Of a DNA stretch of 64,000 nucleotides, positions 220 to 61,600 are shown piece by piece. The first letter of the stretch is position 1. The number at the start of each line of letters is the position of its first letter. The notes under the pieces were generated by a model that did no database searches, was not told the origin of the DNA, and saw only the letters and a list, made by a program, of their open reading frames with translations. The DNA is from Branchiostoma floridae (Eukaryota; Chordata; Leptocardii; Amphioxiformes; Branchiostomatidae), in contig NC_049979.1 in the NCBI RefSeq assembly GCF_000003815.2, positions 14,493,459 to 14,557,458 on the forward strand. Direction: 5' to 3'. Both the position numbers and the translations under genes were made by a program.

Positions 220-766
220 TCATCTGTAAGTCCACAAGCCGTATTCCCGCATGGTCTCGCGGCACAACACCCACTCTGTGGTGTCCGTGTAACCCTTCTT
301 CAGATCCTCTGCACACCTGGAACACATGGAGGGCCAGGTAAGGAACAAGCAGTAGGACAGGATAGATTAAAGCTGCCACATTTAGATGACAACCTCCATT
401 GGCAGATATTCTTAAACATTTTATTATGTCACTAGGTCTATTTTACTCTGGTAGCCCTTGTGTTAGTTACCATTTATGTTTTGTCAAGTTGTAATACATG
501 TTAGTACTTAATTCTGCTACCAGGGAAAAAGTAGTTGGTACAAAATGTACTCGCACGTCCCCCTAGAAATATTTGACCAAGGAGCTCCTTGATTTGACGT
601 ACCCCATGGAACACTTCATGGGGTGAAAGTATCTGCCTGGGTTGGAGAAGGTCCGACTGCATATTGCACAGGCCTCCAAACATTCACCGGGCAGAGCGGT
701 ACACTGCGTGTACAGGGCGGCATTGACCACACACAGCAGTAACGCTACAGGACCGATACGAGCCAT
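220..766 (-). CDS. Small secreted protein with opioid-propeptide-like six-cysteine domain
   Basis: Two-exon model: 766-603 and 316-220, donor GG|GTACGT and acceptor TTCCAG|G, phases agree, 86 residues. A hydrophobic signal peptide (residues 1-24, ending QCTA) is followed by ECLEACAIC, then HPMKCSMGC across the splice junction, then TEWVLC. Cysteine spacing is C-x3-C-x2-C-x15-C-x3-C-x16-C. Vertebrate prodynorphin, as I recall it, has C-x3-C-x2-C-x15-C-x3-C-x12-C with matching landmarks (CLxxC, NPLICSLQC, EEWERC), and the intron here falls between cysteines 4 and 5. The short tail ends EYGLWTYR and has no YGGF core and no dibasic cleavage site, so no opioid peptide is encoded in what is visible. 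A further exon left of the window is possible if the coding exon ends early at a weak internal donor. Eclosion-hormone-type peptides share a similar pattern (C-x3-C-x2-C-x12-C-x3-C-x10-C) and are the main alternative. Confidence 0.6.
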
Positions 767-899
767 CCTCTGGAATAAAGGACAACGTCATTGTGTTATT
801 AACGGAATTATAAAGGTTAGTAAGGTACAGGACATAGGACATTGTAAGAAAAATGTAACCACGGGCATCACGACGACTGGAAATGTAGCGTAAGTTTAT

Positions 900-3800: not shown

Positions 3801-6800
3801 GTATAAGGTACCCACCTACCAGTAGCGTGCCAGGACTTCTGTAACTCTTCCGATTCTTCCGCTCCCTTCCTTCCCGCTTCTTCGCCCGGATAGTGACCAG
3901 TGATCTCACACGTACACGCTTAGCTGACGGTACCTATGTGGAGAACTTGGAGCCCATTCGGCGCAGGTGCACCAGCCCCGCCCTCCCCTGGGTCCGGATA
4001 TCATTGATATGTAACGACCACATAGTGATGACGTCAAGCAATATATGCCAGCGCGCCATCTATAACCGAGGTTAAACTAACTGTAATCAATAAGGATTCT
4101 TTATGTCACCGCATTGTGGTTAAGATAGAAAAAAGGCATATCTTATAATGAAGCAGTCTTTCAGTCATTTGAGCGACAAAAAGCTTGCCCATTGGCCAGT
4201 ACAAGTAGAAGGTGCCATAGTCAGTCTCCTGTGGATTTTAACACAATGTGATTTACGGACTTGCTGGACACATGGAGTTCAGATGTCAATGACCTGGCGA
4301 TGAACTGTGAATGATGAGAAACCAGGGTTAAAAGTTGGAGGCTTCATAATCCTGGTGTGACGTGCTTTAAATAGTGTTTGCAAGCAGGGTAATTAGTGTG
4401 TATCGTGTACACCTATATTCCTATTACTAACGTCTAATGATTTACTGTGAGCATGTAATCAACATCATTCATGTACTGTAATATCTATAATATTCATTCT
4501 ACTCCTGATTTACTTCTTATGCGCCTAAGAGCGTTTATTTCACATTTACTTATAATTTGTTACTGGGCATGGACTTTTGCCCTAATCTGTATGTAAATGC
4601 TTTAATGTGTCCCATGAGCTCCTGGTGACAATTCTCTATTTTAGTGACATGGGATGAAATATATAGTCATACACACAAAACTTATTGTATTGTAAATCAA
4701 GAGTACACGAACCAGTAAGGGGTTTGAAAATATAGGAAAACACTTCAATTGACGAATTTGAAAAGCTGTAACTTAATTTTCCCCCCGCTAAACCACACAA
4801 ACAATCTGATTTATATGTTCTGAGGATGACTGATTGTGGCTTTAGGCAGATACTAGTGGCACTGACATTTGAGATAAGCTAGTTATCTATTGAGTGAGTG
4901 AGTGAGTTATCTATTTCATAAAACAAGACAATTATTAGGACAGATAATGAGTGACTGAGAGAGCTGGATTGTGCGAGATGTGAATTCTTGTCCTGTTCTA
5001 GGATTGCCTGAAAGAAACGATGTCAAAGGCTAATTTGTGGTCTAGAGGTTTTTCTGAAGATCAAAGTTTAGTGTTTTATGCAAATTACATACCTTTTGAT
5101 TCCTACTCCCACGGCTGTGTTTGTTAATAGCAAACTTTGATGTTATATCTCAACAATAGCAGCAGATGTTGGTTCCAATTTCTACCTCCCAAAGGTAATC
5201 TGCCTCATCAATAGGTAATGGAGGACGAGTCAGTCAGCCATTTCCGTACCATTAACAACTGACAAGATCAATGCCGATCTTCAGTGGGAAGTTGTTCCAT
5301 GGCAAAACTTTGTCTTCAACAGTAACATTCAAAGTCAGGAGGGTAAAACTATGCCACCTTGGATGAACATTCATAACATGAAAGTAAGGAGTTGGGAAAC
5401 ACCATAGTCATTTTGATCAGTTTATTCAGTTTTCCTAAAATCTTCCTACCACTGACATACATCTGAAGCCATTTAATACCTACATGTTGTATATGTGTTA
5501 TTCTAATGTTGTTTTCTGTTTGAAGGAAATGCAAAGGAAAAAAATCCACTGAAGTAAGTTACACCCAATACCATGTACTTCAGCATCAACATTTACCTTA
5601 TTTAGATGCAAATATGGAAGGCACAGCAACATTCTTAGTATTTGATTGTCATATAAAGTACTGCACATTCATGTCTTTATTATTGCTGGAAAAAGATGAG
5701 CCAGTAGCAGTTTTAGTAGTCAAGAGTTTCAAGCCTTATCTGTGTACTTGCATCCCGCTATAGATTTCTTTAAAAGGAGATGCTTAAAGATGAGATAAGA
5801 CTCGAGATACAAATATGAAATACACAATCATGTAGATGACAGCACAGGGCTAATACCATTACTACATAAAAGATGGTAATTGTTAATGCTCCCCAACTTT
5901 TGAGAGTCACTTGCATAACATTTGTACAAATTGGGAAGGTACCATTAAAAGTCTTTCCTTTTTTGCAGAGCAGTAACAACCGAACTTATAATTCCTACAA
6001 TGAATAGCACTAGCACTGAAACATAAATTTTTCTGTCGGAAGTTCCTACTCCAGATATTATTCAGCTTTCTGAAAGCCTATTATGTGATTTAAAAGTATA
6101 AAGCCTGCTGATATGAATCTTGCAGGATCTTACAGAATTCTTTTGAAATATGAGCAAACAGAATTGCTATAGATCTATTTTAAACAACCATTTACATTAC
6201 ACTCAACATATACAACATATATATACAAAAATTACTTTCCTTAAGCTTATAGTAATTTGTTTAAATCTTTATGGTTTGCAATAACACCAGGTTATTGCAC
6301 TTTTCCAAGTGGAAACAAGAGATGCAGCTATGTTTGTGACTCCCAACAACAGTGCAACATATTCAGTGCTTTTCTGCCAGAGACGTCCCAGTATTGAGGT
6401 GGCAAGAAGTGAGGCGATGTCAGGATTACGTGTCAGGAATGATGTTGAGCAGAGAATATAAGACCCTAAACATGGTAATATTTAGTAGTATTGACTTAGG
6501 GGATGCTTAACATACATATGTGACAAAAACATGAAAGTTGGTACATTGTATATGAAAGGTACATGCTTTATAGGGTTTTCTTGGTAGACTACATGAATCA
6601 CACAGAAGCATGTCTCCTAAATTGCCTGTTGTAGAAATTGTCTTTTCATCATTAGTAATTGCTTGCAGAAATCCCTTTCCATTGCACCACATGTGGGAAA
6701 ATAAAGGATGTTTCATAGACAACTGTGCTGTATGGAGGTTTTGTACAGTACATTTATTTGATTCAGCTGTAGCTGATATATTTCATTGTAGCTCTATTGT

Positions 6801-28200: not shown

Positions 28201-31200
28201 GAAGGAACTGTACAGCAACAAGCCACCAGCCTGCAGCAACAGGAAGCCGCTGACCAGCAGCTGGCAATCAACCTGCAGCAGCTAGAAGGAACTGTGCAGC
28301 AACAAGCCACCAGCCTGCAGCAACAGGCAACTGCTGACCAGCAGCTGGCAACCAATCTGCAACAACTGGAAGGAACGGTACAGCAACAAGCCACCAGCTT
28401 GCAGCAACAGGAAACTGCTGACCAGCAGCTGGCAACCAACCTGCAGCAACTAGAGGGAACTGTGCAGCAACAAGCCACCAGCCTGCAGCAACAGGCAACC
28501 GCTGACCAGCAGCTGGCAACCAACCTGCAGCAGCTGGAGGGAACTGTGCAGCAACAAGCCACCAGTCTGCAGCAACAGGAAACTGCTGACCAGCAGCTGG
28601 CAACAAACCTGCAGCAACTAGAGGGAACTGTGCAGCAACAAGCCACCGGCCTGCAGCAACAAGCCATCACGTATGCCCAACAAGCCACCAACTTGCAGCA
28701 ACAGGCTGCCATCATCCAGGAACAATCCGGCACCATCCAGCAACTGGAAGGTATGAATTGATAGTTTGTAGATTTTTACCTTCTTTTGATTGACTTTACA
28801 ATTCGCTGAATTATGTACCTATCCTCTGAATTATGGCACATTCTTTCAGTATTACTTTGCATTACAAAGCAAAAACCTAGTACATATTTTGCTAAAATGC
28901 CTGTAGTATTCAAAAGAGTAGCAAAACCAAAGTCCGACACGTAAATACTGGTGTTTTTGAAAAAAGGAGACCCAGGCTAGTTTCAGCAGTGTGTTTTTTT
29001 TATCACATACATATTCAGAAAGCATATTTCTTCACTCTCAGATATACTGAATGCTCCACGTGACTGCCTGGACTTGTTCAACACCGGCCACAACACCAGT
29101 GATGTCTACGCCATCTACCCAGGGGGGAAGGATCCCATCCATGTGTACTGTGACATGGACACTGACGGGGGCGGATGGACGGTACAAAAATTCAACCAAC
29201 AGAAGCTTTTCAATAATTTGTCTCTGTCAATTCCTCTGTTTCATAATTCCACCAATGAAAAATACAAAATCCATACTGTAGCAGTGTAAATTGTCACTGG
29301 TCCAAGTTTCATGTAACATATTATCAAGATGTCATTGTACCAACATGACTGATGAGGTTTTGTCTGATGCAGGTCTTCCAAAGGCGCCATGATGGTTCAG
29401 TAAGTTTCTCCTTGGACTGGCAGGCCTACAAGACCGGCTTTGGGGACATCAAGTCAGAGTTCTGGCTAGGTAACATATCAATTTGATATATTGAATGTGA
29501 TGGCATATTGTAGTAGTAAATGGAGTAAATTCTAGGCTTACTAAAGTATATGTTATTTTATTTTATTTATTCATTCGGTTGACGTTATGACTCAAAGCAC
29601 AAATTCAATGATGTTTTGAGAAAGAAGTTTGCTAATCATTTTACAGGCAATGACAATCTGGCTGCACTGACTGCCCAAGACGTGTTTGAACTGAGGGTCG
29701 ACCTGGAAGACTTTGAGGGAAACTTAGCTTATGCCAAATACAGCACCTTCAGGGTGAAAGACGAAGTCGAGAACTACCAAATGAATGTGGGTGGATATTC
29801 AGGAACTGCAGGTATGAGGAACAATATCTAACATTTTCTACTCTGAATAGAAACATTTCTTATACACGCAATACAACTTCCAACTTGCCTCCTCCCCCCT
29901 CCCACTTATGAACAATGGACCTGTTCTTTCAGGGGACGACATGACATGGAGTTCCACTGCATTCTTCTCCACCATCGACGCAAGCAACTATGTCCATCCT
30001 GGCCACTGCAACCTTGGCAACAAGGGCGGCTGGTGGTACAGCAGTTGTCGTGATGCCAACCTGAACGGCCAGTACCTGGTTGGAACCCACCAGTACAACG
30101 GGGAAGGAGTGAACTGGTACCAGTGGAAGGGAGACAACTACTCCCTCAAACACACTGAGATGAAGATCAGGCCCAACTAGGCTCACTCACTTGGTCCTAA
30201 CAAATGGTTATAGCTGTACTGTAACTCGAGACATGGCAACCTGCTAAATCTGTGTGAGACGATCTTTCTGCTTCCTGCTGACTTCAATGTTCATCTTTGT
30301 TTCCAGTTTGTGTGCTGCCTACATGTATAGTCCATACCTTGTTTGGCAAGGTACAAACTATAGGGAAGCGAACACAAGGTGGAAACAAAAACATAGCATG
30401 GTTCTGAATGTTGGCTGAGATAAGTGATTTAAATGGATACACATCTTAATGGACATGATGCACATAGGAAAGTAGAAAATAGATGATAGGTAACTCTCTT
30501 ATGCCTCATCATCTGCTGTTAGTGTTTTAGAGCAGCTGAAATGAAGTTGACATTTGAAGGAACTACAGAGTGACTGTAATACCGAGTGGACTGCATGACA
30601 AAACTGTAAACATCCTTTGGTGGGAAATAAAACCTTCACTTCCAGCTTCAATCTTTTTATATGCCTGTATGTTGAATGTGATTGTGTTTTTGTGATATGT
30701 GTTCAAACAAATGATGTCCATTAGTTTCATAAAAAGTAAGAGGATTCAACTAGACATGAATACACAGATTGCAAAAGCATCCTGAAGATCAAAAGTTCAA
30801 CATTCTATGTTTGTTCATTTGCATTGCATAATGGAAATGGGGTCAAATTTTGGGGTCAACATAACTACGCCTGCGCGGTACAGCCGACAGCGTGATTTAT
30901 GACATGGGCATATCGGGATACGTTCCGAACTGTATGGTGTAACACACCAGTATTAAACTTTGGTGTTGGTAAGTGACCTAGGTGTGTCTCCCTTCAATTA
31001 GTCAATAACATAAAGGACCTCCAGCTTAATGCAACTGCCAAAGGACTGTAAACATTTCTAGCAACATGTGAGGTATATGTAGGTTAACAATGGGCATGAT
31101 TTAAACTCTCAACCTCTAGTTCTATAGTCAAGGTTACTCATCCATGGACCAAATTGTTCACTTTTAAGCAACATTGGGACTGGTGTTTTTCAAGTAGAAT

Positions 31201-34200: not shown

Positions 34201-37200
34201 TTTAATCTTAATGATCATTCCAAATACTGTTTGAACCATGCCTCCCTATTTAATATTGCATCGTTATTTCTGTAAGAATGTTTTATGGTTTTCATAGATT
34301 GAACACAGAGGTTAAAACAGTAGCCGTAAAATCAGAACAGTGCTTAATGTTGTGTGCATAATACTCTTAGTACTTAGGAACTGAAATATTATCTGATGTC
34401 TCTTTTACCAGTGTTTTGTTTCATTACTGTTGTCCAGCCATTGTAACTTGGTAGCGTGTACTCGTTACTTACTCAGCCACACATTTGATAATCCTGCCAG
34501 TGTCCATTTTCTGCCCAATGCCATGGATGACCAGAACCAGGTGTGTTATGTCTGATGGTTTGTCGTCCATCTTGGCCTCATATCGATAGCCACGGTGAAG
34601 TTTGGTGCCACTAGTCGTAGCTAGAAAAGAAAAGACATGATCTTCTTGCTCTTATACTGTAATATACCTGTAAAAAATACATCAGCTACAGTTTTGTAAC
34701 ATTTCTGTCATAACTACCAAATACATGCTCTACTGTCATCAATAAATGTTTGAAAATGCTGTTTGGAGTGAAGAACATACCTTTAGAAATCCCAAGCTTC
34801 TTCCCAACGAACCGGATACCACGGGAAGTCTTGCTGTCACTGAAGAGGAAGACCTCAGACGGGCTGTACCAATCCACATGGCTGTCTTGAAACCTCACAT
34901 TCAGCACTGGGGACACAATCAATACTCCAATTAGCTAAATGTAGGTACAATGAGTCTGCGTTGTGGGATATTGTCTGGAACAGCCGATAACTAATGGTGT
35001 CTTTTGGGATCTGGACTAATTCAGAATAAACCGGTATTCACCTACATGGATGATATGGATGATATCCATCATATGTACACTCATTTGGCCTTCCCAAGGA
35101 CATAACATATAATCAAATATAATGCACGATACAAATATATATAATGCCATTTGAGATCTCCAGGGATGCATAACATCCACTTGGTGTGGCCTATTGTCAG
35201 CCTACATGTTTAGTTGGTAAAATCTTATTTAACGTGGTGTAATCAAATACAGTGTACTGTACGCAATTTCACACAAATGTGTAACAAATAATCTGAGAGT
35301 CCACAATAACAATGACTGGAAATAGCAAGGCAAATCATTCCCAGTAACCACTGTTGTTTTTTTATGTTTTGCTGATAGCCTTGACCTGTTTCCCATCCCA
35401 TAATCATGATGACTTGGCTCCAGGCCAGCCCTCTAGATGGTATATAATGTCCCCTCCCCATAGCTAGGATGAATATCAGGTGATATTGGTACTCTATCTG
35501 ACCATGATTGCAGCTGTGACTATCATTCTAGAAGTAAGTTCTGGAAATCTAGAGATCCATATAAGGCCACAGCAAGTAAATTTTCTGGATGACATCAGCG
35601 CGTGCATTGATTTTTGCATGATTTCAGAAAAAAAAACAAGATTTTTTTTCTTCTGCAGGGATGGTCAACATGACGATAGAGTACCAAAATGAGCAAATAT
35701 ATTGTGCTGTAGCCTAATAATTGTACTTGTAGAAGTGACACTTACGAGGTACCCAGGGCTGTAGTTGTAGAAATGAAACTTATTGGATAGTTGTAAAAGT
35801 GACACCAATATGGAAGCTATGAGTGTGGTTACCAACTTTGTTGGTGATGCCAATCTACCACACTAGTGTCACTTTTTCCACACCAGTGCATGTCTTAAAT
35901 ACAGGAATGAATGCGTTTTTGCCTCTGATACCATGTTTTGTCCCTTTAAGTCTGTTTACAACAGTCATCACAACTTGATGGTGCCTATTTTTGAAGATTT
36001 TGAAGATATTTTTTTTTCACCCATCTTGTTTTTTTTTTTCGCCCTATCGCACTATTTTTGCAGTCTGCAGAGGATGTCATCCATAAAATTTACTTGCTGT
36101 GGCCTAATGCAGATCAGAACATCTGTTGGCACAACATGAGATGCAAAATGCAGGAAAGTATGATCTACTGTACTAGTACTTTGAAACAGTCAAAAATGAC
36201 ATGAGGAAAATAAATAAAAGAATTGACGTTGGCTATATCTACTAAGACAGGTTGGGTTTGACTTGTTTTCTGGAAGCAAAGGATGACAAAGAGTAAATTT
36301 TTCTACAATTTGTGGGTTTTGAGAATGTAACCAAGGAGCTTTGATAAGATAAAAGCTCCTTGATGTAACTTAAGAAAAAAGGGGGTTTCTGGAAAGGTAT
36401 GGGAATGCCATTGTGACAATTGTTTCTTTTGACAGAATAAAATGAGCTTGGAAATCAAATGTCAACTTCTGGTCCAGAAGCAGGGTAAATATCCACTATA
36501 TATACCATATACACATGCTACAAATAAACAAACCCGTTTGTTGTTTGGTGGGGCTGCTGTGCAGAGGAACCCTCTGTCCTCTCCACTTCCCCAGATGTTC
36601 TGTCTCCAGCTGTGCTGCAATGTCCTCCTCCACAGGCTGCCACGTCCCGTCATGGAACCACTGACCCCGCAGCACCTTGATGGGCTTACCTGTGTGTGTG
36701 TATGGGGGGAGGTAAGATATTTTGTTGCTTTCACATAAACAGAAAGTAATGTACACTTTAATGGCATTGCCATATTGTATCGGATATTCCGTGTGTTTGA
36801 CTTTGAAGACTGAATGTAGAACATGTATCTTCATCACTGTTCATTACGAAACTCCCCCCCCCCCCACCCCACAGAATCATAGACATTGTGATATGATGTG
36901 ATACAAGGTAGTAAGTGATACAAAACTGCAAATCTAATCCATTGCTATTTATAACCTTTCATCTCTGTCACGCACACACACACACACACTCACGCACACA
37001 CACACACATCATGGTTGCCATGGCAACTGCCTCCTCCTGTGACTCACCTGACCAGTAGATGGGGTAGCAATGTTTGGTGGCCACACACACCTCGTGAACA
37101 CCTCCCCGCACCACGATCAGGTCCACTTTCTCCTCTGGGGGCGTGTTCCCCTGGTGGAAGTGAACCTGTCGGTACTTAGTCTCAATCCTTAAGGAGTCGT

Positions 37201-37600
37201 AACCGATGAAGGGTTCCCACTGAGGCTTCTTCCCGGGTTCTTCCGTCTCGTAGAACCATCTGACTTCCTCGGGTCTCAAGTCCGTCACGACGTCTTGGGT
37301 TGTGGAGACGTTGGCGCTAGCAGAGGGGAGACCCGGGCGAGGGGGTACCGCGGGCCTGGGCGGCCTGGGGGGCCTGGCAGGGCTTTGCCGCACGGGAGAC
37401 TCCGTCAGATCGATAACTTCGGGATTGTAAGCGGGTGGTCTCTCGTCTTCGTACTGCTGTGCCATCTCCAACCCGTACGGATCTGAGTCGTCAAAAGCAG
37501 CCTGCTGACGATAGTTCCTGCCCATGGCTACCATGGGCCTCCAGACACCTTCACCACTGTCTCGATCACCGAACTGGTCCCCGGGGGACGGGTATTCCAT
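7269..37600 (-). CDS. DDHD1: Phospholipase DDHD1 (phosphatidic-acid-preferring phospholipase A1)
   Basis: Fifteen coding exons, 767 residues: 37600-37048, 36689-36534, 34906-34781, 34620-34473, 33605-33493, 33033-32927, 32639-32451, 31803-31727, 31547-31469, 11532-11383, 11154-11004, 10463-10332, 10104-9967, 8117-8088, 7423-7269; all splice phases close. Landmarks in order: [10 protein letters not shown] and [10 protein letters not shown] near residue 110-140; [12 protein letters not shown]; the [14 protein letters not shown] loop; [10 protein letters not shown]; the catalytic serine motif [16 protein letters not shown] near residue 437; then the DDHD domain with [34 protein letters not shown] and [13 protein letters not shown]1 hydrolyses phosphatidic acid and phosphatidylinositol at cytosolic membrane surfaces; the MTGW block and the C-terminus separate it from DDHD2 and SEC23IP. 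The stretch between residues 616 and 716 is low-complexity Ser/Gly-rich and poorly conserved, so small exons there could be missed or alternative. The Pro-rich N-terminus is unlike the Gly-rich human one. Confidence 0.93.
9738..9772. repeat. ATTC microsatellite
   Basis: Interrupted tandem ATTC units (TTCATTCAATCATTCATTCA and onward) inside a DDHD1 intron. Confidence 0.8.
12109..15572 (+). CDS. Fibrinogen-domain lectin A (ficolin-like), nested in DDHD1 intron 9
   Basis: Seven exons, 388 residues: 12109-12234, 12584-12748, 13203-13416, 13751-13896, 14164-14260, 14670-14834, 15319-15572, phases closed. Signal peptide [20 protein letters not shown], then a Cys cluster CTSTCC that could link chains, then about 125 residues of Gln-rich coiled coil, then a C-terminal fibrinogen-related domain starting [20 protein letters not shown] and passing [69 protein letters not shown] and ending [10 protein letters not shown]. 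The calcium-site DRD and the paired cysteines are present. Such proteins are secreted oligomeric lectins that bind acetylated sugars; the immune role here is inferred from family. A TATAAA sits at 12075-12080. Acceptor of exon 5 is TCATCAG rather than the TGATGCAG used in copies B and C. Confidence 0.88.
15595..15600 (+). terminator. Polyadenylation signal AATAAA of lectin A
   Basis: AATAAA 22 bases after the lectin A stop codon. Confidence 0.7.
16190..16330 (+). repeat. Dispersed repeat, copy 1 of a close pair
   Basis: The stretch with CCAACCAATCCCTGAATTTC, TTGGTTGTTTTC, GGTATCCAGACCATT and GTGTGTCATG is repeated in the same orientation at about 17425-17575 with small indels. It is about 140 bases long and has no visible coding content. 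Not assigned to a family. Confidence 0.7.
16748..17225 (+). repeat. About 470-bp interspersed element, copy 1
   Basis: Shares order and sequence with 25893-26368: a TTTTTCTT...GGACCGG start, GCATTTTGGGGCTTACTGG, GAAATGGACNATTGTTTTG, a CACAAGTTTTCACA block, and an end dominated by GGTCCAGGT/ACCTGGACC inverted motifs and GTACNGGTACCCA. The inverted ACCGGTACAGAA-like ends suggest a non-autonomous DNA transposon. It lies between lectin genes A and B. Confidence 0.7.
17425..17575 (+). repeat. Dispersed repeat, copy 2 of a close pair
   Basis: Same-orientation partner of 16190-16330, sharing CCTTGGTTGTTTTC, ATAGTATCCAGACCATTC, TGTGTCATG and TTTATCACATGTTGCTACA. The two copies flank the 470-bp element copy 1 (16748-17225), which may have inserted between or inside them. 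Confidence 0.65.
18290..18915. mobile_element. Decayed TIR element, possibly mariner-like
   Basis: Starts GGGGGCATTCAATAAGTTCT and ends with AGAATTTATTGATTGTCCCT, which is an imperfect inverted copy of the start. The interior shows no readable transposase. The TTCAATAAGTT terminus is reminiscent of some mariner relatives, but the family call is weak. Confidence 0.35.
19018..23165 (+). CDS. Fibrinogen-domain lectin B with Gln-rich coiled-coil repeats
   Basis: Six exons, 661 residues: 19018-19266, 20316-21402, 21515-21654, 22046-22142, 22379-22543, 22918-23165. Signal peptide [18 protein letters not shown], a short linker, the Cys pair CQASC, then one 1087-base exon encoding about 360 residues of heptad coiled coil built from 14-residue units ([14 protein letters not shown], four near-identical in a row) and 28-residue units (two full copies of the [12 protein letters not shown] type). 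The fibrinogen-related domain runs from [20 protein letters not shown] to [10 protein letters not shown] with [32 protein letters not shown] and LNGQYL. The calcium motif seen in copy A as STKDRDNE reads STKDASNY here, so the second acidic residue is gone. Likely a secreted multimeric lectin; coil length implies a stalk several times longer than in copy A. Confidence 0.88.
21080..21335 (+). repeat. 84-bp coding minisatellite in lectin B
   Basis: Near-identical 84-base units encode [18 protein letters not shown] plus a variable ten-residue end. Two full units and flanking partial units are present. Each unit is two 42-base sub-units, that is four heptads, so copy-number change keeps the coil register. 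Confidence 0.85.
23588..23593 (+). terminator. Candidate polyadenylation signal of lectin B
   Basis: AATAAA about 420 bases after the lectin B stop codon; no closer canonical signal was seen. Confidence 0.4.
23780..24830 (+). mobile_element. Decayed non-LTR retrotransposon (LINE) reverse-transcriptase fragment
   Basis: Translating the three plus frames piecewise gives the order of a CR1/L2-like reverse transcriptase: SRAFDSVQH, a [10 protein letters not shown] block, QRTPRPVDF with [15 protein letters not shown] (the FADD-box equivalent, here VDD), [33 protein letters not shown] and a [17 protein letters not shown]-like C-terminal segment. Frame changes and stops interrupt it many times, and the 5' endonuclease part is absent. 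It sits between lectin genes B and C, in the same orientation. Confidence 0.7.
25226..30180 (+). CDS. Fibrinogen-domain lectin C with longer Gln-rich coiled coil
   Basis: Six exons, 770 residues: 25226-25381, 27244-28750, 29042-29181, 29373-29469, 29647-29811, 29933-30180. The exon structure is the same as copy B. Signal peptide [20 protein letters not shown], Cys pair CDVTC, then a 1507-base coiled-coil exon with four 14-residue QATSLQQLE-type units and six 28-residue [12 protein letters not shown]-type units (two in copy B). The exon is exactly 420 bases longer than its partner in B, a multiple of 42. The fibrinogen-related domain spans [20 protein letters not shown] to [10 protein letters not shown]. 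The calcium motif is STIDASNY, again without the D-x-D of copy [11 protein letters not shown] and LNGQYL remain. A CATAAATA motif lies about 50 bases before the start codon. Function by family: secreted pattern-recognition lectin. Confidence 0.88.
25893..26368 (+). repeat. About 470-bp interspersed element, copy 2
   Basis: Same-orientation copy of 16748-17225, located in the first intron of lectin C. Shared blocks include CGTTTTGGGGCTTACTGG, GCGAAATGGACTATTGTTTTG, AGGTCCAGACCTGGACCTGA and GTACTGGTACCCACCCC. Together the two copies bracket lectin B and the LINE fragment. Confidence 0.7.
28100..28665 (+). repeat. 84-bp coding minisatellite in lectin C
   Basis: Six near-identical 84-base units encode [18 protein letters not shown] followed by QQQ and an alternating [12 protein letters not shown] or ETADQQ end. 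The alternation of ATADQQ and ETADQQ units suggests that the array grew by duplicating a 168-base pair of units. Confidence 0.88.
30626..30631 (+). terminator. Candidate polyadenylation signal of lectin C
   Basis: AATAAA about 450 bases after the stop codon, a distance like that of lectin B. Confidence 0.45.
36970..37011. repeat. CA microsatellite
   Basis: CACACACAC run interrupted by CTCACG, just downstream of the first DDHD1 exon. Confidence 0.85.
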
Positions 37601-38496
37601 GGTGACAGGCGCGTTTTCTCAGTTTTTACCAGGAATCAGCTTTCTGGGTTCCAACGTACACAGCACCCGGCAGGTCACTCCAGGGCGTTCACCTTTCACC
37701 CTTCAGCTGTTATCAACGCAGCTAAATGTAAAAACCTTCATATATGTCTTCCGTCAAAATTTTACAAATAATCTCCCATACCTAGATTTTTTTACATCAC
37801 AATTAATATTTTGACGGATTTAAGTTATAGGAAGTAAATATTGTACCCATCATTGTTTACTTTTAGAGAGTGCAATTATGACCTTTATGTTTCGATGCTA
37901 CTCAATCAAGAAATATAGGAGAGGTGACTCAGAACGTGATGTTGGTTTCGTAATTCCCAAATCATCATACGTAAGTCACTTCACATCATACGTGTTCATT
38001 GTTTTATACTTTCTCGGTTAGGGAAAATCTCTTGTCATTCCTTCAAGATTTATAGTAGAAGGTAAGGTTTGGTCATTGAACGTTGGGGAGGGGGGAAGAG
38101 CAGAGGGAGGGGTGTTTAAATAGGGATGTTACTCAACATGCTACAAAGTTAAGTTGTGCACTATTCTCTCAAAGTACTTTGTACATGTGGTATTCCTGTG
38201 TAACTTGTGTAGTGTACGCAAGGCGTACTAATTGTATGTATACTTTGATTATTTTTTATCCATCCAAGGACGTTAAACTTATATAACGTCCTTGATCCTC
38301 TTTTATGGGTTATGCTTAGTCTTATTTTCTTGACGCAATGAATGTGATTTGTCAAGTTATTTGCTTAACGTACTGAATAAGTAGATAAAACGTTAAGTTA
38401 GATGTTTCATTCTTGCAGGATTTTCCATATTCTTTCGAAACTCCATAAAATCTGTCAATAGAATCTCTCTTAAACCTGTTCCATTCCAGTTTGCAG
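37601..38496. promoter_or_regulatory. Divergent interval between DDHD1 and SMIM12
   Basis: Start codons of DDHD1 (minus) and SMIM12 (plus) face away from each other about 0.9 kb apart, so both promoters must lie here. SMIM12 coding sequence begins shortly after an acceptor-like CATTCCAG/TTTGCAG, implying a non-coding first exon upstream. No TATA box was recognised. Confidence 0.5.
38265..38294. repeat. Short palindrome CAAGGACGTTA...TAACGTCCTTG
   Basis: Eleven-base arms, CAAGGACGTTA and TAACGTCCTTG, with an eight-base loop. The same arms recur at 48845-48868 with a two-base loop, which suggests a very small fold-back element or solo ends of one. Confidence 0.65.
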
Positions 38497-38524
38497 GTTC
38501 CTGAGAGTCCAAACCAACGCTGCA

Positions 38525-38794
38525 ATGTGGCAGGTTTTCATCAGGACCTACGCACCGTACATCACCTTCCCTTTTGCCCTGGTCATCGGCTTCGTTGGGT
38601 ACAACTTTGAGAACCTCGTACGTGGCGGGAAACAGCAGCCTTACCGGAACAAGAGCATCCTTGAGGAGCGAGAGGAGAGGAAGTTGGAGGCAATTGAGGA
38701 GAAGGACCCCACGGAAGTGGACAAGTTGAAGGAGAAGAAGTTTGTGCCTCGTTCAGTGTTGGACAAAAACCAGCCGGGCTGGAAGGGTTTGTGA
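38525..38794 (+). CDS. SMIM12: Small integral membrane protein 12
   Basis: A single coding exon of 89 residues: MWQVFIRTYAPYITFPFALV, a transmembrane helix (about residues 10-30) and a charged C-terminal half with SILEEREERKLE and FVPRSVLDKNQPGW. Human SMIM12 has the same plan ([46 protein letters not shown]) and nearly the same length. It is a single-pass membrane protein with no settled function. The start codon is the first ATG after a probable splice acceptor. Confidence 0.92.
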   Translation: MWQVFIRTYAPYITFPFALVIGFVGYNFENLVRGGKQQPYRNKSILEEREERKLEAIEEKDPTEVDKLKEKKFVPRSVLDKNQPGWKGL

Positions 38795-47000: not shown

Positions 47001-49350
47001 CAGAGTTCATAGATGAGGCATCCTAGTGACCAGATGTCTGATTTTTCATTGTACGACATGTTGTTCATTTGTTCCTGTAAAAACAGAAATACAATTGTTA
47101 CAGCCTGTTATACAAAGAAACATGACTGATTCCTTTCTCAACTCCACAAATGTCATGACGGCATATGAACGACAATTGTTGTAGTTCCCTGATTGTATCG
47201 ATTTTGTTAACTGCATTGTACTGTGTATTCAGTCATTTGTTCCACCTTCCTGACCACTCACCGGAGACATATAGTATGGCGTCCCAACAAAAGTTTTGGC
47301 GAAGCTCGTATCATGGGCCAGAACCCTCGCCAGCCCAAAGTCTCCCAGCTTCACATCCTTGTTAGCATCCAGAAACACGTTGGCAGGTTTCAGGTCACGA
47401 TGCAGGAAGGTTTTCCCGTCGCGTCGGTTATGACATTCCTTCAGCGCCAGGCAGATTTGGAAGAACAGCTTCCAGATCATGTCCTCTTCCAAGTATCGCC
47501 TAGGGATGAGAATTAGAGATCGAGTCAGGAAAAATGCAGTTGGTAGATGAATGAACAAATATAAATGTACAAAGGAAAAAACGAAAGAATGGATGAATAC
47601 ACCAACAGGCTTGTAATTGTGTGGTCCTACCTTTCCCGGCGACACCTGGAGATGAGGCTAGCTAGGTCTCCGCCCTCACAGTACTCCATGACGATGTAGA
47701 TGGTGGTGTTGCTGCGGTCGATGATGCGGTCGTAGTACCGCACAATGTGCTGGTGCTTCAGCTCTCGCAGCAGGTTCACCTCTGACACCAGCATCGACTT
47801 CTCCGCCTCTGACATGGTGCCATAGTCCATCTCCTTCCATACCAGGACCTGCAATGATGCACAACAATAGACAATCAGCACATGAACAACTGTAAATGCA
47901 GGGATTTGATTTCATGGTAGCAGAAAATGGGGTGTTCATGATGGCATTTAGAAGTTAAGTTTAGCGGCTGAAACAAGGTGGTAGGCAGGCACTATGACAA
48001 ACAATCATTTTGGTGAAGAGGTTACCACGAAAACTGCAAACATTAAACCACTATGAACATATAGAATACAACACGGTGTATTCCGTATCACCCAAGGTTA
48101 GGTAGCAGCCCGACCGCGGGTCGGATCTTCGGCCGGAGGGTGATCGGACCCACGGGAGGGCTGAAACTGAGGGTGATGTGGAATACACCGTGTTGTATTT
48201 TATTATGTCATACCCACCTGAGAAAACCCATGTTTTGATCCGAAATGTGCCAGAAGTTGAACAAATTTGGTGCCCTCGAACAAAAAAGTGTTGCAACAGC
48301 AATGTTCCAACGTCCAAATCAGGTAATGCCAACTGTGCCGTATTCGGCCCGCTCAAAACAGTTCGATTTATTCGAATGGAGCCTGTGTGATATGCCTTTC
48401 GAACCTGTGCGATACAGAAGCGTACGGCCTGGTCCGGAACACCCGTATCGAACGTTTTCGCGTCACAGGTATGACATAATGTATAATACACACTTGAAAC
48501 CTCAGCACCTCTCCATACCTTGTGACTTCTGAAGCACAAGCTGTTGACATCACACCTGGTAAAACCAGCTTATCACACAACACTTTCACAAGCAATCACC
48601 CTGCCTCGAGGTGACTAGACCACCATTGTCTTTCACTTCTGTGGAGTGCTTGGAGACAAAAGCATGTCTGCACACGCGCAGAAGTCTTGTATAGAGCTTT
48701 GCTTTTCAACAAAGGTGGTCAGGGTTTGCAAAAAATTATGCATAAACTATAGGGTATGTGTAAAATGAATGCCAGAAGTGATAATTACCTGAAGTGCTAA
48801 TTATTGGCAGTCTTAAAAGATTCTGGCAGAAACTTGTATTAAACCAAGGACGTTATATAACGTCCTTGATTTAAACCAAGGTCTTTTTTAACCTCCTTGA
48901 TTAAACGTAAAAGCTTTGGTTGCATCGCTTCAGTCGTATTTTCCAGCTCACTTTGCTCACCAATATGCCAAGATATCTCTGTCCTTTTCTCTTGATGAGA
49001 TTAATCAAGCCAATCAACGTAATTTCAAACAACAGCTGCTGGCGTGGTAGCCTGGATACCATACCCCAACCTCAAATATCTTTCGTGTTGGGCGATAGAT
49101 ACTTGAGATCGGGCTGGGGTTTGGTAACCAGGCTACTGGCGTGGCGCCTTGACTTGAGTGAACGTCAGCCAGACTTCACATGCCTTGTTATCTGACATTG
49201 TTATCCGTGATCAAACAAATCGATATGCATGCACAGAAGTAAACTTGCTACCTTGCCATCGGTCCTCCGCCGAACTTTCTTGCAGGTTCCATAAGAGCCG
49301 GTCCCGATGGTGTACAGAACTTCGTAGTCTTCCAATCTTGAAGTAGGCAT
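44004..49350 (-). CDS. NEK2: Cell-cycle kinase NEK2
   Basis: Nine exons, 460 residues: 49350-49252, 47848-47631, 47499-47262, 47074-46992, 46584-46458, 46168-45940, 45787-45733, 45435-45338, 44239-44004. Kinase domain from [20 protein letters not shown] (Gly loop) through VWKEMDYG (Lys), [34 protein letters not shown] and [13 protein letters not shown] leucine-rich coiled coil follows, then KKKVHFS (a PP1-docking KVxF), GKENERADD (KEN box) and the end KSRQLLGMR (Met-Arg tail). In vertebrate NEK2A these three elements recruit PP1 and the anaphase-promoting complex, so mitotic destruction is probably conserved. NEK2 acts at centrosomes to split the linker at G2/M. Length is close to the 445 residues of the human protein. 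Confidence 0.95.
47888..48056. mobile_element. Degenerate relative of the CTGTAAATGCA MITE
   Basis: ACTGTAAATGCAGGGATTTG at the left and ACCACGAAAACTGCAAACATTAAACCAC-like sequence at the right match the parts of 39513-39655 in the same order. The right terminal TTTACAG is worn away. Lies in the first NEK2 intron. Confidence 0.5.
48065..48490. mobile_element. Compound palindromic element
   Basis: First inverted pair: AATACAACACGGTGTATTCC (48065) against GGAATACACCGTGTTGTATT (48180-48199). Second pair: GTATTTTATTATGTCATACC (from 48194) against GGTATGACATAATGTATAAT (from 48469). The two hairpins overlap at the GTATT junction, as if one TIR element lay beside or inside another. The interior is GC-rich and shows no protein. 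Confidence 0.65.
48845..48868. repeat. Short palindrome CAAGGACGTTA...TAACGTCCTTG
   Basis: The same arms as 38265-38294 with almost no loop (CAAGGACGTTATATAACGTC and so on). A related AACCAAGGTC...CCTCCTTGATT pair follows directly. Confidence 0.65.
49048..49135. mobile_element. 88-bp MITE with exact 9-bp target duplication
   Basis: TAGCCTGGATACCATACCCC and the inverse of GGGGTTTGGTAACCAGGCTA form the arms; further GATACTTGAGAT pairing extends them. CTGGCGTGG occurs exactly on both sides (49039-49047 and 49136-49144). A 9-bp duplication with long inverted arms points to a Mutator-like transposase. Located in the first NEK2 intron. Confidence 0.8.
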
Positions 49351-49744: not shown

Positions 49745-52700
49745 ATGGAGTCGATCTTTCACGAAAAGGTGAGTTGTTGTGGACTTTTCCCGATGATTAC
49801 GTTTTAGACGACTGTCGGTTAGGATGGTGGATATTTTTTGTGTAAACATAGAACATTTCTTACTGGAGTTGTATGAAATACTATGTCAAAAGTAAGAGTC
49901 TCCAGCCTATAATGGACTTGATGTTTTTATGACAACGAACTGCTTGTCATCATGATGGTAACATCGCATGACGATACCGGAAGCGCTGTTCGGGAGAATC
50001 ATAGAAACGTCCCCAACTTTGAAAACAAAGATTTTTCTCTGGACACTTCATCTTGATGATCGGATCGTATCTTGATGATCGGATCAAAGGTTTGTTTTAG
50101 TACAGACGTAACAATGGTCACCAAAGATCAGGTTCAGTAATTATATTTATTGTATGTCTAGGGACATATATGACTTCGCCTCCACCTCACAAAACGATTG
50201 ACTATGATCTCAATATGATATGAGCCGGTACATACTAGTATTCAACCCTCCGAGTGTTCGGGTTGATTAGAACTCGACTTACCGGGTAGGGACTAATTAT
50301 TACCAAATTTGGAAGGTATTAATTGCCGACAGATTCTCACTTGGTAATTAGTAAAACAGTACCCAAAAGATATCTCGCTTCTGGGACCAAACAGGTGCCC
50401 CTATGTTGAAAGTTTAAATTGCTTCCTTATACTTTCAGCAAGAGGGTTCACTGTGTGCTCAGCATTGCCTCAATGCTCTACTGCAAGGTAAGTCATCGTG
50501 AAGAGTTTGTGTTTTGCATATTTTTTACACTCAACTCTTGTACACTCTCTACAACTAATAAGTCAAGACAGAAATTAACAACACAATTATCATTGTAGTG
50601 TGATTGTACTTGACATTGAAACTTAAAACACTATTGCCATCATGGTAGAGTGCAGGTCCCAAACTTAGATAGGAAGTACCAGTGGTTATTCAGAAAACAA
50701 GTTGTTGCCAAAGAAAGACAATACATGTACTTGTGCACTGTACTCTTGTTCTCTGTAGATATGCATCAGGTAAAAGCTCAGCAAGCCCAAGGTGATGGAA
50801 TACTAATTGTTTCTCCCACGATGATGTTACCAAAATGACTGGTCTTAGATTACTAGTATGTGGTAGTCACATGACTGTTAACATATTTGAAATAGTAATG
50901 ATATTACGCCTGCCTTGGAACAGGTCCAGCCCGTTCAGCCAAATGTAACCATGGCTTTTGGACTTGCAATGTCATTGATCTAATTTCTGTTCCTTGGCAT
51001 GGTAACAAGGTGCATTTATCCAACATCTACCATGTGATTTATGTTGACAGACAGTTTTAAACTCAAGTTAACTGAGCATGACGTAACGGGATAGAAAACT
51101 GAAGGTTTAGAGATTTTAGCCAGAGGTTACTTTATAATAACTATAAGTGACAAAATTGTCAAACCCTGTACCGGTATTAAATCTGAATGGGTGATATACA
51201 TGAACATCTAATCATTTTATTTCAGATAAGATCTTGAGACTCTGTGCAATACATCAGATATTAGCCTCTGTCACAGTGTTATCTATGCAATATGAATGTT
51301 TTATATGTCATTAATATGATACATGTCTTTTCCCATAGGTGAATACTTCACGGCGGTTGACCTGGCCTCGTTTGCCCAGCAACTGGATGAGGCTGAGCGG
51401 GAGAGGATGGCAGAGGGAGGAACAACAACAGCAGAGTACCAGCACTTCCTACAGGTATGATGCCAGCCTCCGTAGTGACTGCTGGCTCAATCCTTTTGCT
51501 TGCTGACCATGGAAGTGAATGGATTGATCCAATGGTCAATATGGAGGCTGGTACTCAGGCAAATGGTATAGGTGCTTCAGACCAAGCAGAATACAATGTG
51601 ATTTTTCCCACAAAACATTCTAGGCTGCAATGTTTTGTGGGGAAAAAAAACTTGTATTCTGCTTGGTCTGAAGCAGCTTAGTTTACACTGATCCAAGCTT
51701 GCCAAAAGCCATCCTCTCTTAGCTATATCTACACTCAAGTAAAGAGTCATTCTCCTGCCCATTAGATGAGAGCATCAATACCTGCCAAAAGATTGTATCT
51801 GATCTTTTCCCCAGACTTTCCTGCACTAATCTATTTACTGTAGTTGAGTCCAGACAAAGTCATTAGAAGTACTTGTCAGTCTGCAGGAAAACTTAATGAG
51901 GATCCTTCTTTATCTGCCCTCCACAGCAACCATCTTCAAATATGGATGACAGCGGCTTCTTTTCCATCCAGGTAAGCTCAACCTTGTAATCAACTTTCTT
52001 TACTTTTGCTTGAAGTTGTTGTGGCTATATTTTGTCATGACTGTAGATCACTATACCATGCTGTGATTCCATGTAAATTATGAAAAAAAGATTACCATTA
52101 GTTTAGCCACTAGTCCCTACTACCAGAGAGAGCCGAAGGCGACTACACCTTCGTCTTCGGAACGACACACATCTACAAGTCCCGTACTGCCGAACCACCA
52201 CGTACAAGAACAGTTTTGTCCCCTACAGCACACGACTCTGGAATAGTCTTCCCATGGAAGTAAAGGAAGCCACATCTTACAACCAGTTCAAAAAGAAGTG
52301 CAGAGATCACATTCTGTCTTCCCGTCAACACCAGAAGTTTCGTAGACTTGGAAATCGCCAGAGCAACATCCTTACTACCAGACTACGTCTTGGCTGGTGT
52401 CAGCTCAACTCTACGTTGGCTAAGTTCAACATCACAACCCGGAGCTGTGCTTGTGGTGCTACGTCCGAGACGGTTGCACACTTTCTACTTCACTGTCCTC
52501 TGCACACGGCTGCACGGCAAACCCTAGCTTCTTCAGTGCTCCAACTGTCGGCCAGTCTCTCTCAACCGGAGTCCTCCTTAATGGTTCTCCAGGTCAAAAC
52601 TCTGCTACAAACCAAAAACTCTCAGACGCTCTGCATTCATTTTTAACATCAACAAACCGATTTACAGCACCTTCCATCTGCTCCTAATAGCTTACGTAGC

Positions 52701-58631: not shown

Positions 58632-61600
58632 CTACACTTCTATCCTTGGGTCTGAAGGTCGTCCAGCCTGGATGAGAAAATTTTCCTGCTTCATCTTTGG
58701 TTTCTCCGTCCTCGTGTGCCAGACTAGGACCTGTGGGGACAGGACATGGAACGAATTGTAAAGGAAAATTGTGACCAAACAGACTACATCTTTAGAAAAA
58801 AATTACTCCTACAGTGTTCATTTCATACATGTGCTCAAATACTTGCACTTTTTGTATAAAGTAGCGGTGACTACGCATATAAAGCAGGGCTCGAAATTAA
58901 CATAGTCCCATAGGCCCGGGGCACCAAAAATTTAGGCCGGGAACACTAGAAAATCACTTTGGGACCTTTTTTGGGACGATAGAAAAATAATCAACATCAG
59001 AATGTAATTTTTAGTTTTATTGAGAAGTTAACTGGGGTTACGGGAGCTTGGTGGCAGCTTATTTACTGATGATCTGCTCGATTCTCCCAAGGAGGTTGAA
59101 AAAAAGATTTTCCCAGCTGCGCGCCACGGCGTTTATTTACATGGAGTAAAATCTTCCGAAGGAAATTCGACATGTAAGTCCTAAAGTTCTACACAAACAG
59201 TGTACATCTTTAATGTCAGAAGATAATAATTCTCCTTCTGATGGCCCAAAATCACCAGTTAAAAAGTTTTTCTTCCCAACCTCCACTTGTTATGTTTGGT
59301 TTGTCTCAAATTTCTGGACAAGACATGTTTTTTGAATCTGCGTTGATTTCGAGTTTATTGTATACATGTAATTGACAATTAGTTATACAGAAATTTTGTA
59401 CTCTGAGTCTGACTCAACATTATATTTATTGTTGTAATACATACTTCCTACGTGGGACCATCCATCCTCACTTCGGGACGATTGGAATTTATTTTTGGGA
59501 ACACTTCTGGGACAGTAGGGGGAAAAGTTAATTTCGAGGCCTGATAAAGTAAGAAATAACACGGGATACAGTAGAGTAAACATCAGAAAGACCTTAGTAC
59601 AGTTGTCTGCCAGAGGTTCAAGTTCATCCATGGTGACCAGATGCTGCAAAAGAGATGACTCCAGGTAACCCCGCCGCACACGCAGCTCGAACTTCACCTG
59701 ACGATTCTCCAGGATCAGCTGCAGGTTCACCGCAAATCCCGCCATGTCGATGGCGAAGGGCCTCTCTGGTCGCCAGTACGTGTACCATCTGAGGTGTAGA
59801 GATGTAGTGATGAATTACAAGTCATGGGATCAAATCAAAAGTCTGAACCTAATGTGCACACTACCCACAGCAGTCGTGTCTGTATTGATATTATAAAGAG
59901 AATGCCCCAATGAGTGATGTCCTTTGTATATCTCTATCCCTAAGTTTGGAACTGGTGCATTATCCCATGAGATAGTTTGCTAGTTGTACCCTACAAAAGA
60001 ACTGTACAAACGTAAACAGACCTGACAACCTTGCCATGTTCCACCACGGGTCGTTCAAACCTCATTCCCCCCACCAGTCCCACAGGCCACACAGACACAC
60101 CGCGGGTGTGCCTCATCTGGAAAACAAAGAACTATGTATACGTAGCATGGTGCATTATGGCTTTAGAAGCCATCAACAGGAGAGCTACAGCAAGGTCTCC
60201 TTGCTTTTCTATTTCGATTATTACCAAAAGAGGATGCCTCAAACAGTGGTCATCTGCTTCCCAGCCTTGAAAACTTGGTGACTGTGTTTTAATCTAGGAT
60301 GACAGTACATACCTGCTTGATGTCAATTTTGTGTGCATCTATTTTCAACCATAAATTGCAACACTCAATATCACCAGATGCTAGTTTCTTATTCATAATT
60401 GTGTAAATCAGTAAGTACACACACACATTGTCACCACTTCTTGTGCGAACACAGTGGCACGGGCAATTGTTAATATGTCAACATTGAATAACTAGTCTCT
60501 GCATAAGTTAGTCCAAGCCATCTACCATAATGCTACCTCATCAAACAGCTGCAAGCTGTAGGTGTTGTCATCATCAGCAAAGTAAACCACGCCCCTATCC
60601 CTGTCCAAGTCCAGGTTTTCTCTCAACCACTGCAGTCCGACGTTCCTCTGCTCCACACCACGAGGCTTCAGCCAGTTGGGATCCGTCTCCTTCAACTGGT
60701 AATTCTCTGGAGTTTTAATGTTTAGGTGTGTGTATTTGATCCCACATGATGCTAGGAACCGGGTCACCAAGTCTGTCTGACTGTCCGAATCCTCCACAAG
60801 GATCCAGTGGAAGTTCTTGACGTGCAGAAAGGTTTGTGCGAGGCGCGTGAGTTCCGCCTTCTGTACGTGCCTGGTGTGGGTAGGCATGATGGCATAGATG
60901 GTGGGGAGGTTGGCATCTTCCTGGGGTTTCTTCAGTAAGTCTCTTTCCCTTCTCCTCAGACGCTCCTCCCATTGTCTTAGATCTTTTGTCTTCGTTAGAA
61001 GTGTTTCTTCTTCTTTACTGCTTGTGTCGCAGAATAGGCCTGCAAGTGTAAAAAACAAGGCAACAATGGACAAGAATAAAGATATTAATACATGTTTGAA
61101 GTTCCTCGTATTCCTAGCATCTTAAGACATAACGTTATTACCTTTCACCTGGGTGGGATGCCACTGAAGGGGTAAAGTATAGATGTAGATGTAGATGACC
61201 TTACAACATCTATCTCAGCAGTGTTTACACTCTTTCACGGATTTCACTACCCATGTGCGGGCAACAAGAATTCTGGGTAACAGGTTCATTTGTCTAGGGT
61301 GAAGGCCCCTGACGGTTCCCCCTGACTGAAAATCTTGCATTCGCCATTGCATTCCCGACATTGTTATGCAAACAATGGTTCAGACAAGACATCTCAGGGG
61401 CCTTCATCTTTGACATATTACATGTGCATGTGTACTACTCTCCAAGCAGAGGTTGAGTCGCGTAGATAGAGTAGAAGTGGAAAAATACTTCTACTATATC
61501 TACGCGACTCAACCTCTGCTTGGAGAGTACATGTGTACCTAGAATTCCTGTCACCGCACATGCCCAGTAAAAACTGTGAACAAGCTTATACAATGTGTTT

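Follow-up and report, generated by a model that had tools for sequence, protein, structure and literature searches.

The window, meaning the whole 64-kb stretch of Branchiostoma floridae DNA analysed here, opens with a small two-exon gene on its minus strand; the gene sits on the 35.3-Mb contig C1, of which the window covers 14,493,459-14,557,458. A sequence-only reading of this DNA had proposed a two-exon protein with six cysteines spaced C-x3-C-x2-C-x15-C-x3-C-x16-C and split by an intron between cysteines 4 and 5. Both points hold in the gene model, which has an in-frame GT-AG splice and the following features:

766, minus strand: start codon, which opens coding exon 1
603..766, minus strand: coding exon 1, with a signal-like start and domain cysteines 1 to 4 (from coordinates, translation and hydropathy)
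766..695, minus strand: signal-like start, residues 1-24, placed by inspection (hydropathy and small residues at 22-24)
317..602, minus strand: intron of 286 bp, GT-AG, phase 2, inside the Gly codon right before cysteine 5
splice sites of the 286-bp intron, minus strand: donor CATGGG/GTACGT (cut before GTACGT); acceptor TGTTCCAG, then GTGTGC
220..316, minus strand: coding exon 2, with cysteines 5 and 6, the W-x2-C motif and a C-terminal tail ending in GLWTYR
222..220, minus strand: stop codon TGA, end of exon 2
770..771, minus strand: putative splice-acceptor AG (TTGTCCTTTATTCCAG), three bases ahead of the ATG, read from the sequence only

Conceptual splicing of both exons gives a protein of 86 residues, in which the domain cysteines were counted at residues 29, 33, 36, 52, 56 and 73. 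Hydropathy peaks at 2.97 over residues 6-14, and the start of the protein suggests a signal peptide cleaved after residue 24, leaving a mature chain of about 62 residues. Similarly, the AG at 770..771 suggests a 5′ non-coding exon upstream of the gene. The intron donor is moderate: under a consensus matrix, 2.5% of the 7,883 GT dinucleotides in the window, both strands counted, score as high. In the six frames of the 64 kb, the pattern C-x3-C-x2-C-x8-22-C-x3, with no extra cysteines between, has a single match, which is this gene. A run of 1,065 N lies directly left of window base 1, and the readable 3′ side of the gene amounts to 219 bases. A single-sequence AlphaFold model of the protein has a mean pLDDT of 52.5, which is too low for use.

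Elsewhere in the window, Pfam recognised four domains, in genes that may be DDHD1-like, SMIM12, NEK2-like and B3GAT-like, respectively:

36971-37618, minus strand: WWE domain
38474-38791, plus strand: UPF0767
47232-47657, minus strand: protein kinase
60525-61121, minus strand: glycosyltransferase family 43

Between 12536 and 30177 on the plus strand lie several fibrinogen-like-looking gene pieces with long Gln-rich repeat stretches, of which Pfam confirmed Fibrinogen_C only at 29851-30177. An open frame at 52107-52643 (plus strand), containing CGATSETVAHFLLHCPLH, has no Pfam match and may be the C-terminal end of a reverse transcriptase of the non-LTR type.

The cysteine pattern had been likened to that of prodynorphin, and a search with PF01160, the N-terminal domain of vertebrate opioid precursors, bears this out: PF01160 is the best Pfam family for the 86-residue protein, at 25.9 bits against a cut-off of 23.5, with a match spanning both exons. 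The C2HC zinc finger reached 16.4 bits (cut-off 27) and NCBIfam gave 0 families. A better score for the eclosion-hormone family, which the first reading had named as grounds for giving up the opioid likeness, did not appear, since Eclosion (PF04736) gave 12.4 bits against a cut-off of 25; membership of that family was rejected on this score. As controls, human PENK, PDYN and PNOC scored 66-68 bits on PF01160 with no eclosion match, two eclosion hormones scored 113-120 bits on their own family with no PF01160 match, and POMC fell in its own Pfam family, NPP. Pfam put all six of these human and insect reference sequences in the expected families.

The main rival explanation is convergence, in which lancelets and vertebrates each evolved a cysteine-stabilised helical hairpin (C-x3-C-x2-C ... 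C-x3-C ... C) on their own and PF01160 rewards this scaffold together with a few chance residues. The nominal Pfam E value of 1.1e-5 overstates the case for a chain so rich in cysteines, because shuffles in which the cysteines were held fixed also give PF01160 matches: 2 of 10 concatenates (50 shuffles in all) matched, at 15.4 and 17.4 bits. However, the window protein scored well above these scaffold-only matches, and both it and a relative on contig C14 (C14a, below) beat all 50 shuffles on Pfam. We also built a profile from the human PENK, PDYN and PNOC domains and took significance from full or cysteine-fixed shuffles of the query. The window protein scored 23.3 bits. None of 10,000 full shuffles came up to this score, and a single one of 10,000 cysteine-fixed shuffles did; a separate count gave 0 of 5,000 cysteine-fixed shuffles, and when the tryptophan was held besides the cysteines, 5 of 3,000 shuffles reached its score. 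The opioid test is partly post hoc, the protein having been chosen for its likeness to prodynorphin. In pairwise comparisons, the score was reached by 4 of 3,000 shuffles against PDYN and 57 of 3,000 against PENK, while PNOC (1,792 of 3,000) and POMC (465 of 3,000) were matched no better than by shuffles. Profile-profile comparison gave the window protein a probability of 65.5 with the human profile and 2.5 with the eclosion profile.

Beyond the cysteines, a tryptophan three residues before cysteine 6 (W-x2-C) is common to the window protein, the C14a and C4 relatives, PENK, PDYN and PNOC, in contrast to isoleucine in both eclosion hormones. The first four cysteine gaps of the window protein fit the 3-2-(14 or 15)-3-12 of the human precursors, and its last gap is four longer. 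This gap, between cysteines 5 and 6, measures 12 in C14a, C4 and the three human precursors and 10 in eclosion hormone; the window protein has 16 residues there and C14b 21. The x12 gap of C14a and C4 is, with W-x2-C, a further feature common to the precursors that speaks against convergence. On the other side stand the spacing of eclosion hormone (3,2,12,3,10), which is nearly identical, and the different intron place and the lack of synteny on two markers described below. Taken together, we regard convergence as unlikely, though a serious contender.

The lancelet domain is not confined to the window. In a six-frame PF01160 scan of the lancelet genome, 30 candidates were scored and 16 matched, two of them over 23.5 bits; the window gene is absent from these matches because it is split by its intron. 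Twelve of the 16 were inspected (C18, C12, C9 and C17 among them), the other four lying on C235, C6:16.3 Mb, C8 and C4:27.7 Mb. Two of the twelve are gene-like, namely C14a (25.0 bits in the scan and 25.7 bits as a joined protein) and C4 (18.1 bits in the scan, below the cut-off), and ten are chance-like. C14a came up over the cut-off independently of the gene chosen in the first reading, which speaks for the opioid-domain reading. The second over-cut-off place contains a stop and is chance-like, and no gene was seen at the C17 match. The places of the relatives are:

C14:14522496-14522687, minus strand: C14a domain from the PF01160 scan, with a signal-like start and six cysteines
C14, about 14526817-14527134, minus strand: C14b gene, of the same plan as C14a and about 4 kb from it
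C4:21071769-21071987, plus strand: C4 domain from the PF01160 scan, with a signal-like start and six cysteines

The motif at cysteine 6 reads MWRYC in C14a, MWKLC in C4 and MWKKC in C14b. In both C14a and C4, the domain is followed by a donor-type GTAAGT (AT then GTAAGTT) and, 0.6-0.7 kb downstream, by a matching exon behind an acceptor-type AG, with a transmembrane stretch (LKWQYILAI.. and LKWQHVLAI..). All three genes, C4, C14a and C14b, are predicted to encode small membrane proteins; each has a phase-2 intron, and the exon that follows the domain is a predicted transmembrane one. Joined across their introns, the C14a and C4 proteins share 40% identity along 110 residues. When the genome was searched with the C4 protein, C4 and C14a came back with E values no higher than 1.5e-11, and three weak matches on C10, C3 and C13 (E 0.39-1.8) were dismissed by eye. 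Neither the window protein (at E up to 0.001) nor C14b retrieved anything but itself. Hence at least four lancelet genes carry a domain of this kind, the window gene and three predicted membrane forms, and four is a lower bound because the search with the C4 protein missed C14b. The earlier proposal of an opioid-type domain in a lancelet is supported by the PF01160 match, but as an account it was incomplete, with at least three predicted transmembrane relatives besides. No family name was found for the C4, C14a and C14b genes.

Against the human-precursor profile, cysteine-fixed shuffles reached the score of C14a in 9 of 5,000 cases, that of C4 in 131 of 5,000 and that of C14b in 220 of 5,000. 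The first of these figures, like the 1 in 10,000 of the window protein, speaks against convergence. With the tryptophan also held, the counts were 64 of 3,000 for C14a and 826 of 3,000 for C4. The PF01160 scores of C4 (17.3 bits) and C14b (12.6 bits) mean little alone, because scaffold shuffles reach 17.4. In the reverse direction, a profile of the three transmembrane proteins gave scores reached by cysteine-fixed shuffles in 20 of 5,000 cases for PENK, 13 of 5,000 for PDYN and 36 of 5,000 for PNOC, and by 887 and 2,929 of 5,000 shuffles for the two eclosion hormones. The same profile likes the window protein weakly (247 of 5,000); hence there is no clear sign that the window gene is nearer to its C4 and C14 relatives than to the vertebrate genes. 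Searches further afield gave nothing credible: solved structures were matched at best at E 0.13 (Mdm2) by the window protein, and at 0.25 (a designed protein) and 6.5 (an envelope glycoprotein) by a profile of three lancelet domains, while in viral contigs 3 stretches fit a pattern and 0 were confirmed as relatives.

The sequence-only reading had also taken the place of the intron as evidence for a link with opioid precursors, and this argument fails. According to Sundstrom et al. (2010, PMC2865548), the first exon of medaka PENK carries the first three cysteines, hence the vertebrate split, as seen in PENK, lies between cysteines 3 and 4. The window gene has no coding intron at that place; its own split comes after cysteine 4 and before cysteine 5. 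In the C4 and C14 genes, the whole domain lies within one exon. Two marker gene families of the opioid paralogon were taken from the list in PMC2865548. Stathmin is found on lancelet C2 and C17 and NKAIN on C17, while the domain genes are on C1, C4 and C14, so that the two markers tested give no synteny with the paralogon. If the contig numbers are the published chromosome numbers, C2 and C17 share CLGJ ancestry (PMC7269912). The different intron place, the lack of synteny on two markers and the missing opioid core count against strict orthology of the lancelet genes with vertebrate opioid precursors.

Concerning that core, the first reading had seen neither an opioid core nor a dibasic site in the protein. 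The former holds, as no Y/FGGF flanked by dibasic sites occurs in the window gene; the latter does not, a KK pair being present at residues 61-62, inside the domain. YGGF or FGGF occurs once in the six frames of the window, at 6731, on the strand opposite to the gene. Near the C4 and C14a domains (open reading frames of at least 25 codons on the gene strand, 10 kb around and downstream; C14b left out), no YGGF was found, and one YGGM occurs near C4. Across the genome, [KR][RS]YGGF is at chance level, with 26 matches against 26 in a reversed control, and the sole close pair, at C8:5153400-5153540 (minus strand), was rejected as a stop-filled tandem repeat whose unit reads KRYGGF. This repeat is a trap for opioid-core searches. 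Judged from its predicted sequence, the window protein is not an opioid precursor.

The 2010 study states that opioid peptide genes were not identifiable in B. floridae (PMC2865548), a 2018 review considers the opioid system likely to be a vertebrate novelty, or else lost outside, and a 2024 paper reports that no POMC gene was found in amphioxus or urochordates. No report of a lancelet opioid-domain gene was found in a literature coverage from which subscription papers are mostly absent.

A second rival holds that the window protein is a lancelet ligand of the eclosion-hormone type, acting on a receptor guanylyl cyclase, with the opioid likeness either secondary or due to one superfamily in which the protein stands between the two. 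Over its first half it can be aligned with the eclosion hormone of Drosophila (CLEACAIC..GRYF...C against CLNNCVQC..GDYF...C), with a pairwise score reached by 40 of 3,000 cysteine-fixed shuffles (125 of 3,000 for Manduca). On an eclosion-hormone profile it scored 11.0 bits, reached by 63 of 10,000 cysteine-fixed and 6 of 10,000 full shuffles, and by 35 of 5,000 in another count. Conversely, on a profile of the four lancelet domains, the score of the Manduca hormone was reached by 62 of 5,000 shuffles and that of Drosophila by 380 of 5,000; the Manduca figure leaves room for one superfamily. A 2019 paper (PMC6660194) reports an eclosion-hormone-type receptor guanylyl cyclase in cephalochordates; where it lists holders of the ligand beyond arthropods, it names cnidarians, acoels, hemichordates, lophotrochozoans, onychophorans, echinoderms and tardigrades, and leaves cephalochordates unnamed. 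However, the score of 12.4 bits under the Pfam cut-off and the tryptophan, where both eclosion hormones have isoleucine, argue against this reading, as does a more eclosion-like half-domain elsewhere in the genome. This half-domain (DCISSCEVKKGRVIPECAHIDAI) lies at C6:10684368-10684499 (minus strand), scores 19.4 bits on PF04736, below the cut-off, and shares 45% identity with the Drosophila hormone across 22 residues; no first exon for it was found in about 25 kb upstream. It is the only eclosion-like one of the five matches in a genome scan with PF04736, none of which is over the cut-off, and the best of them, on C7 (21.3 bits), is not eclosion-like. The window peptide is one candidate ligand of the lancelet eclosion-type guanylyl cyclase and the C6 half-domain another, and the reading as a whole appears improbable.

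That the gene is a hidden opioid precursor, through an alternative transcript which bypasses the termination codon and picks up exons hidden in the 1,065 unread bases, seems very improbable. The window does start right at this N run, and donor-like sites occur at 203 (GTAAGG, after the stop) and 274 (GTGGGT, before it). However, the former comes too late to bypass the stop and the latter would lose cysteine 6, the 10 kb to the left, where readable, has no YGGF on the gene strand (one FGGF is on the other strand), and the genome-wide counts of [KR][RS]YGGF and its stop-filled repeat give no support. Finally, a chance joining of two open stretches is hardly to be believed: the donor is moderate and the model known from sequence alone, but the signal-like start, the in-frame splice, the six cysteines across it, the Pfam match over both exons and a genome scan in which just two of 30 candidate places exceed 23.5 bits, one of them a gene-like relative, indicate that this is probably a real gene.

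We therefore favour, with some reserve, the reading in which the window gene encodes a small secreted one-domain protein of the PF01160 kind, without opioid peptide, belonging to a small lancelet set on C1, C4 and C14. Its product is probably related to the N-domain of opioid precursors, in free, secreted form, which would imply common descent with the vertebrate domain. In the predicted pathway, removal of a signal peptide of about 24 residues would leave one disulphide-rich domain to be secreted. A disulphide-bonded peptide of about 62 residues is the likeliest product because the chain is too short to be the precursor of anything else. With three presumed internal disulphides, this peptide might act on an extracellular partner; that it acts as a free ligand is inferred from the domain making up all that remains of the chain. 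The working parallel, by analogy, would be eclosion hormone, a free six-cysteine peptide on a receptor guanylyl cyclase.

On this secreted one-domain reading, the domain may have existed on its own, secreted or at the cell surface, before there were vertebrates, and opioid precursors could have arisen when a domain-bearing gene gained a last exon with YGGF cassettes. A bolder version has lancelets retaining the pre-opioid state, with a free hormone (the window gene) and cell-surface forms, eclosion hormone in one ancient superfamily, the window peptide as ligand for the eclosion-type guanylyl cyclase and vertebrate precursors made by added enkephalin cassettes; as a whole, we hold it to be improbable. 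The conserved N-domain of opioid precursors is usually treated as a sorting piece. Our results suggest that this module is perhaps older than the opioid peptides. If so, how the opioid system arose would turn on the gain of a domain, which is testable one gene at a time, and the ancestor of the conserved N-domain may have been a signalling peptide. The free and membrane-bound lancelet forms of the domain are together worth more than the window gene alone.

Among known systems, the N-terminal region of POMC (PF08384, NPP) resembles the window protein in being an N-terminal cysteine region of a precursor from the same vertebrate gene family, but it has four cysteines in the compared stretch and NPP gave no Pfam match on the window protein. 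Eclosion hormone (PF04736) is likewise a short protein made up of the six-cysteine part alone, with a similar spacing and G-x-[YW]-F before cysteine 4; the window protein differs in falling under the family cut-off, in having W rather than I before cysteine 6, and in gaps that are longer by 3 residues ahead of cysteine 4 and by 6 ahead of cysteine 6. The C4, C14a and C14b genes have in common with the window gene a signal-like start, the six-cysteine domain, W-x2-C and a phase-2 intron, although in another place; they differ by their predicted transmembrane exon and by a domain held in one exon, whereas the window gene ends after the domain. From PENK, PDYN and PNOC, the window protein is set apart by having no opioid core, a total of 86 residues, C5-x16-C6 instead of x12, an intron between cysteines 4 and 5 (3 and 4 in PENK) and a gene off the contigs of the two markers. 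With these precursors it nevertheless shares a signal-like start, six cysteines with first gaps of 3-2-(14 or 15)-3, W-x2-C and one coding intron.
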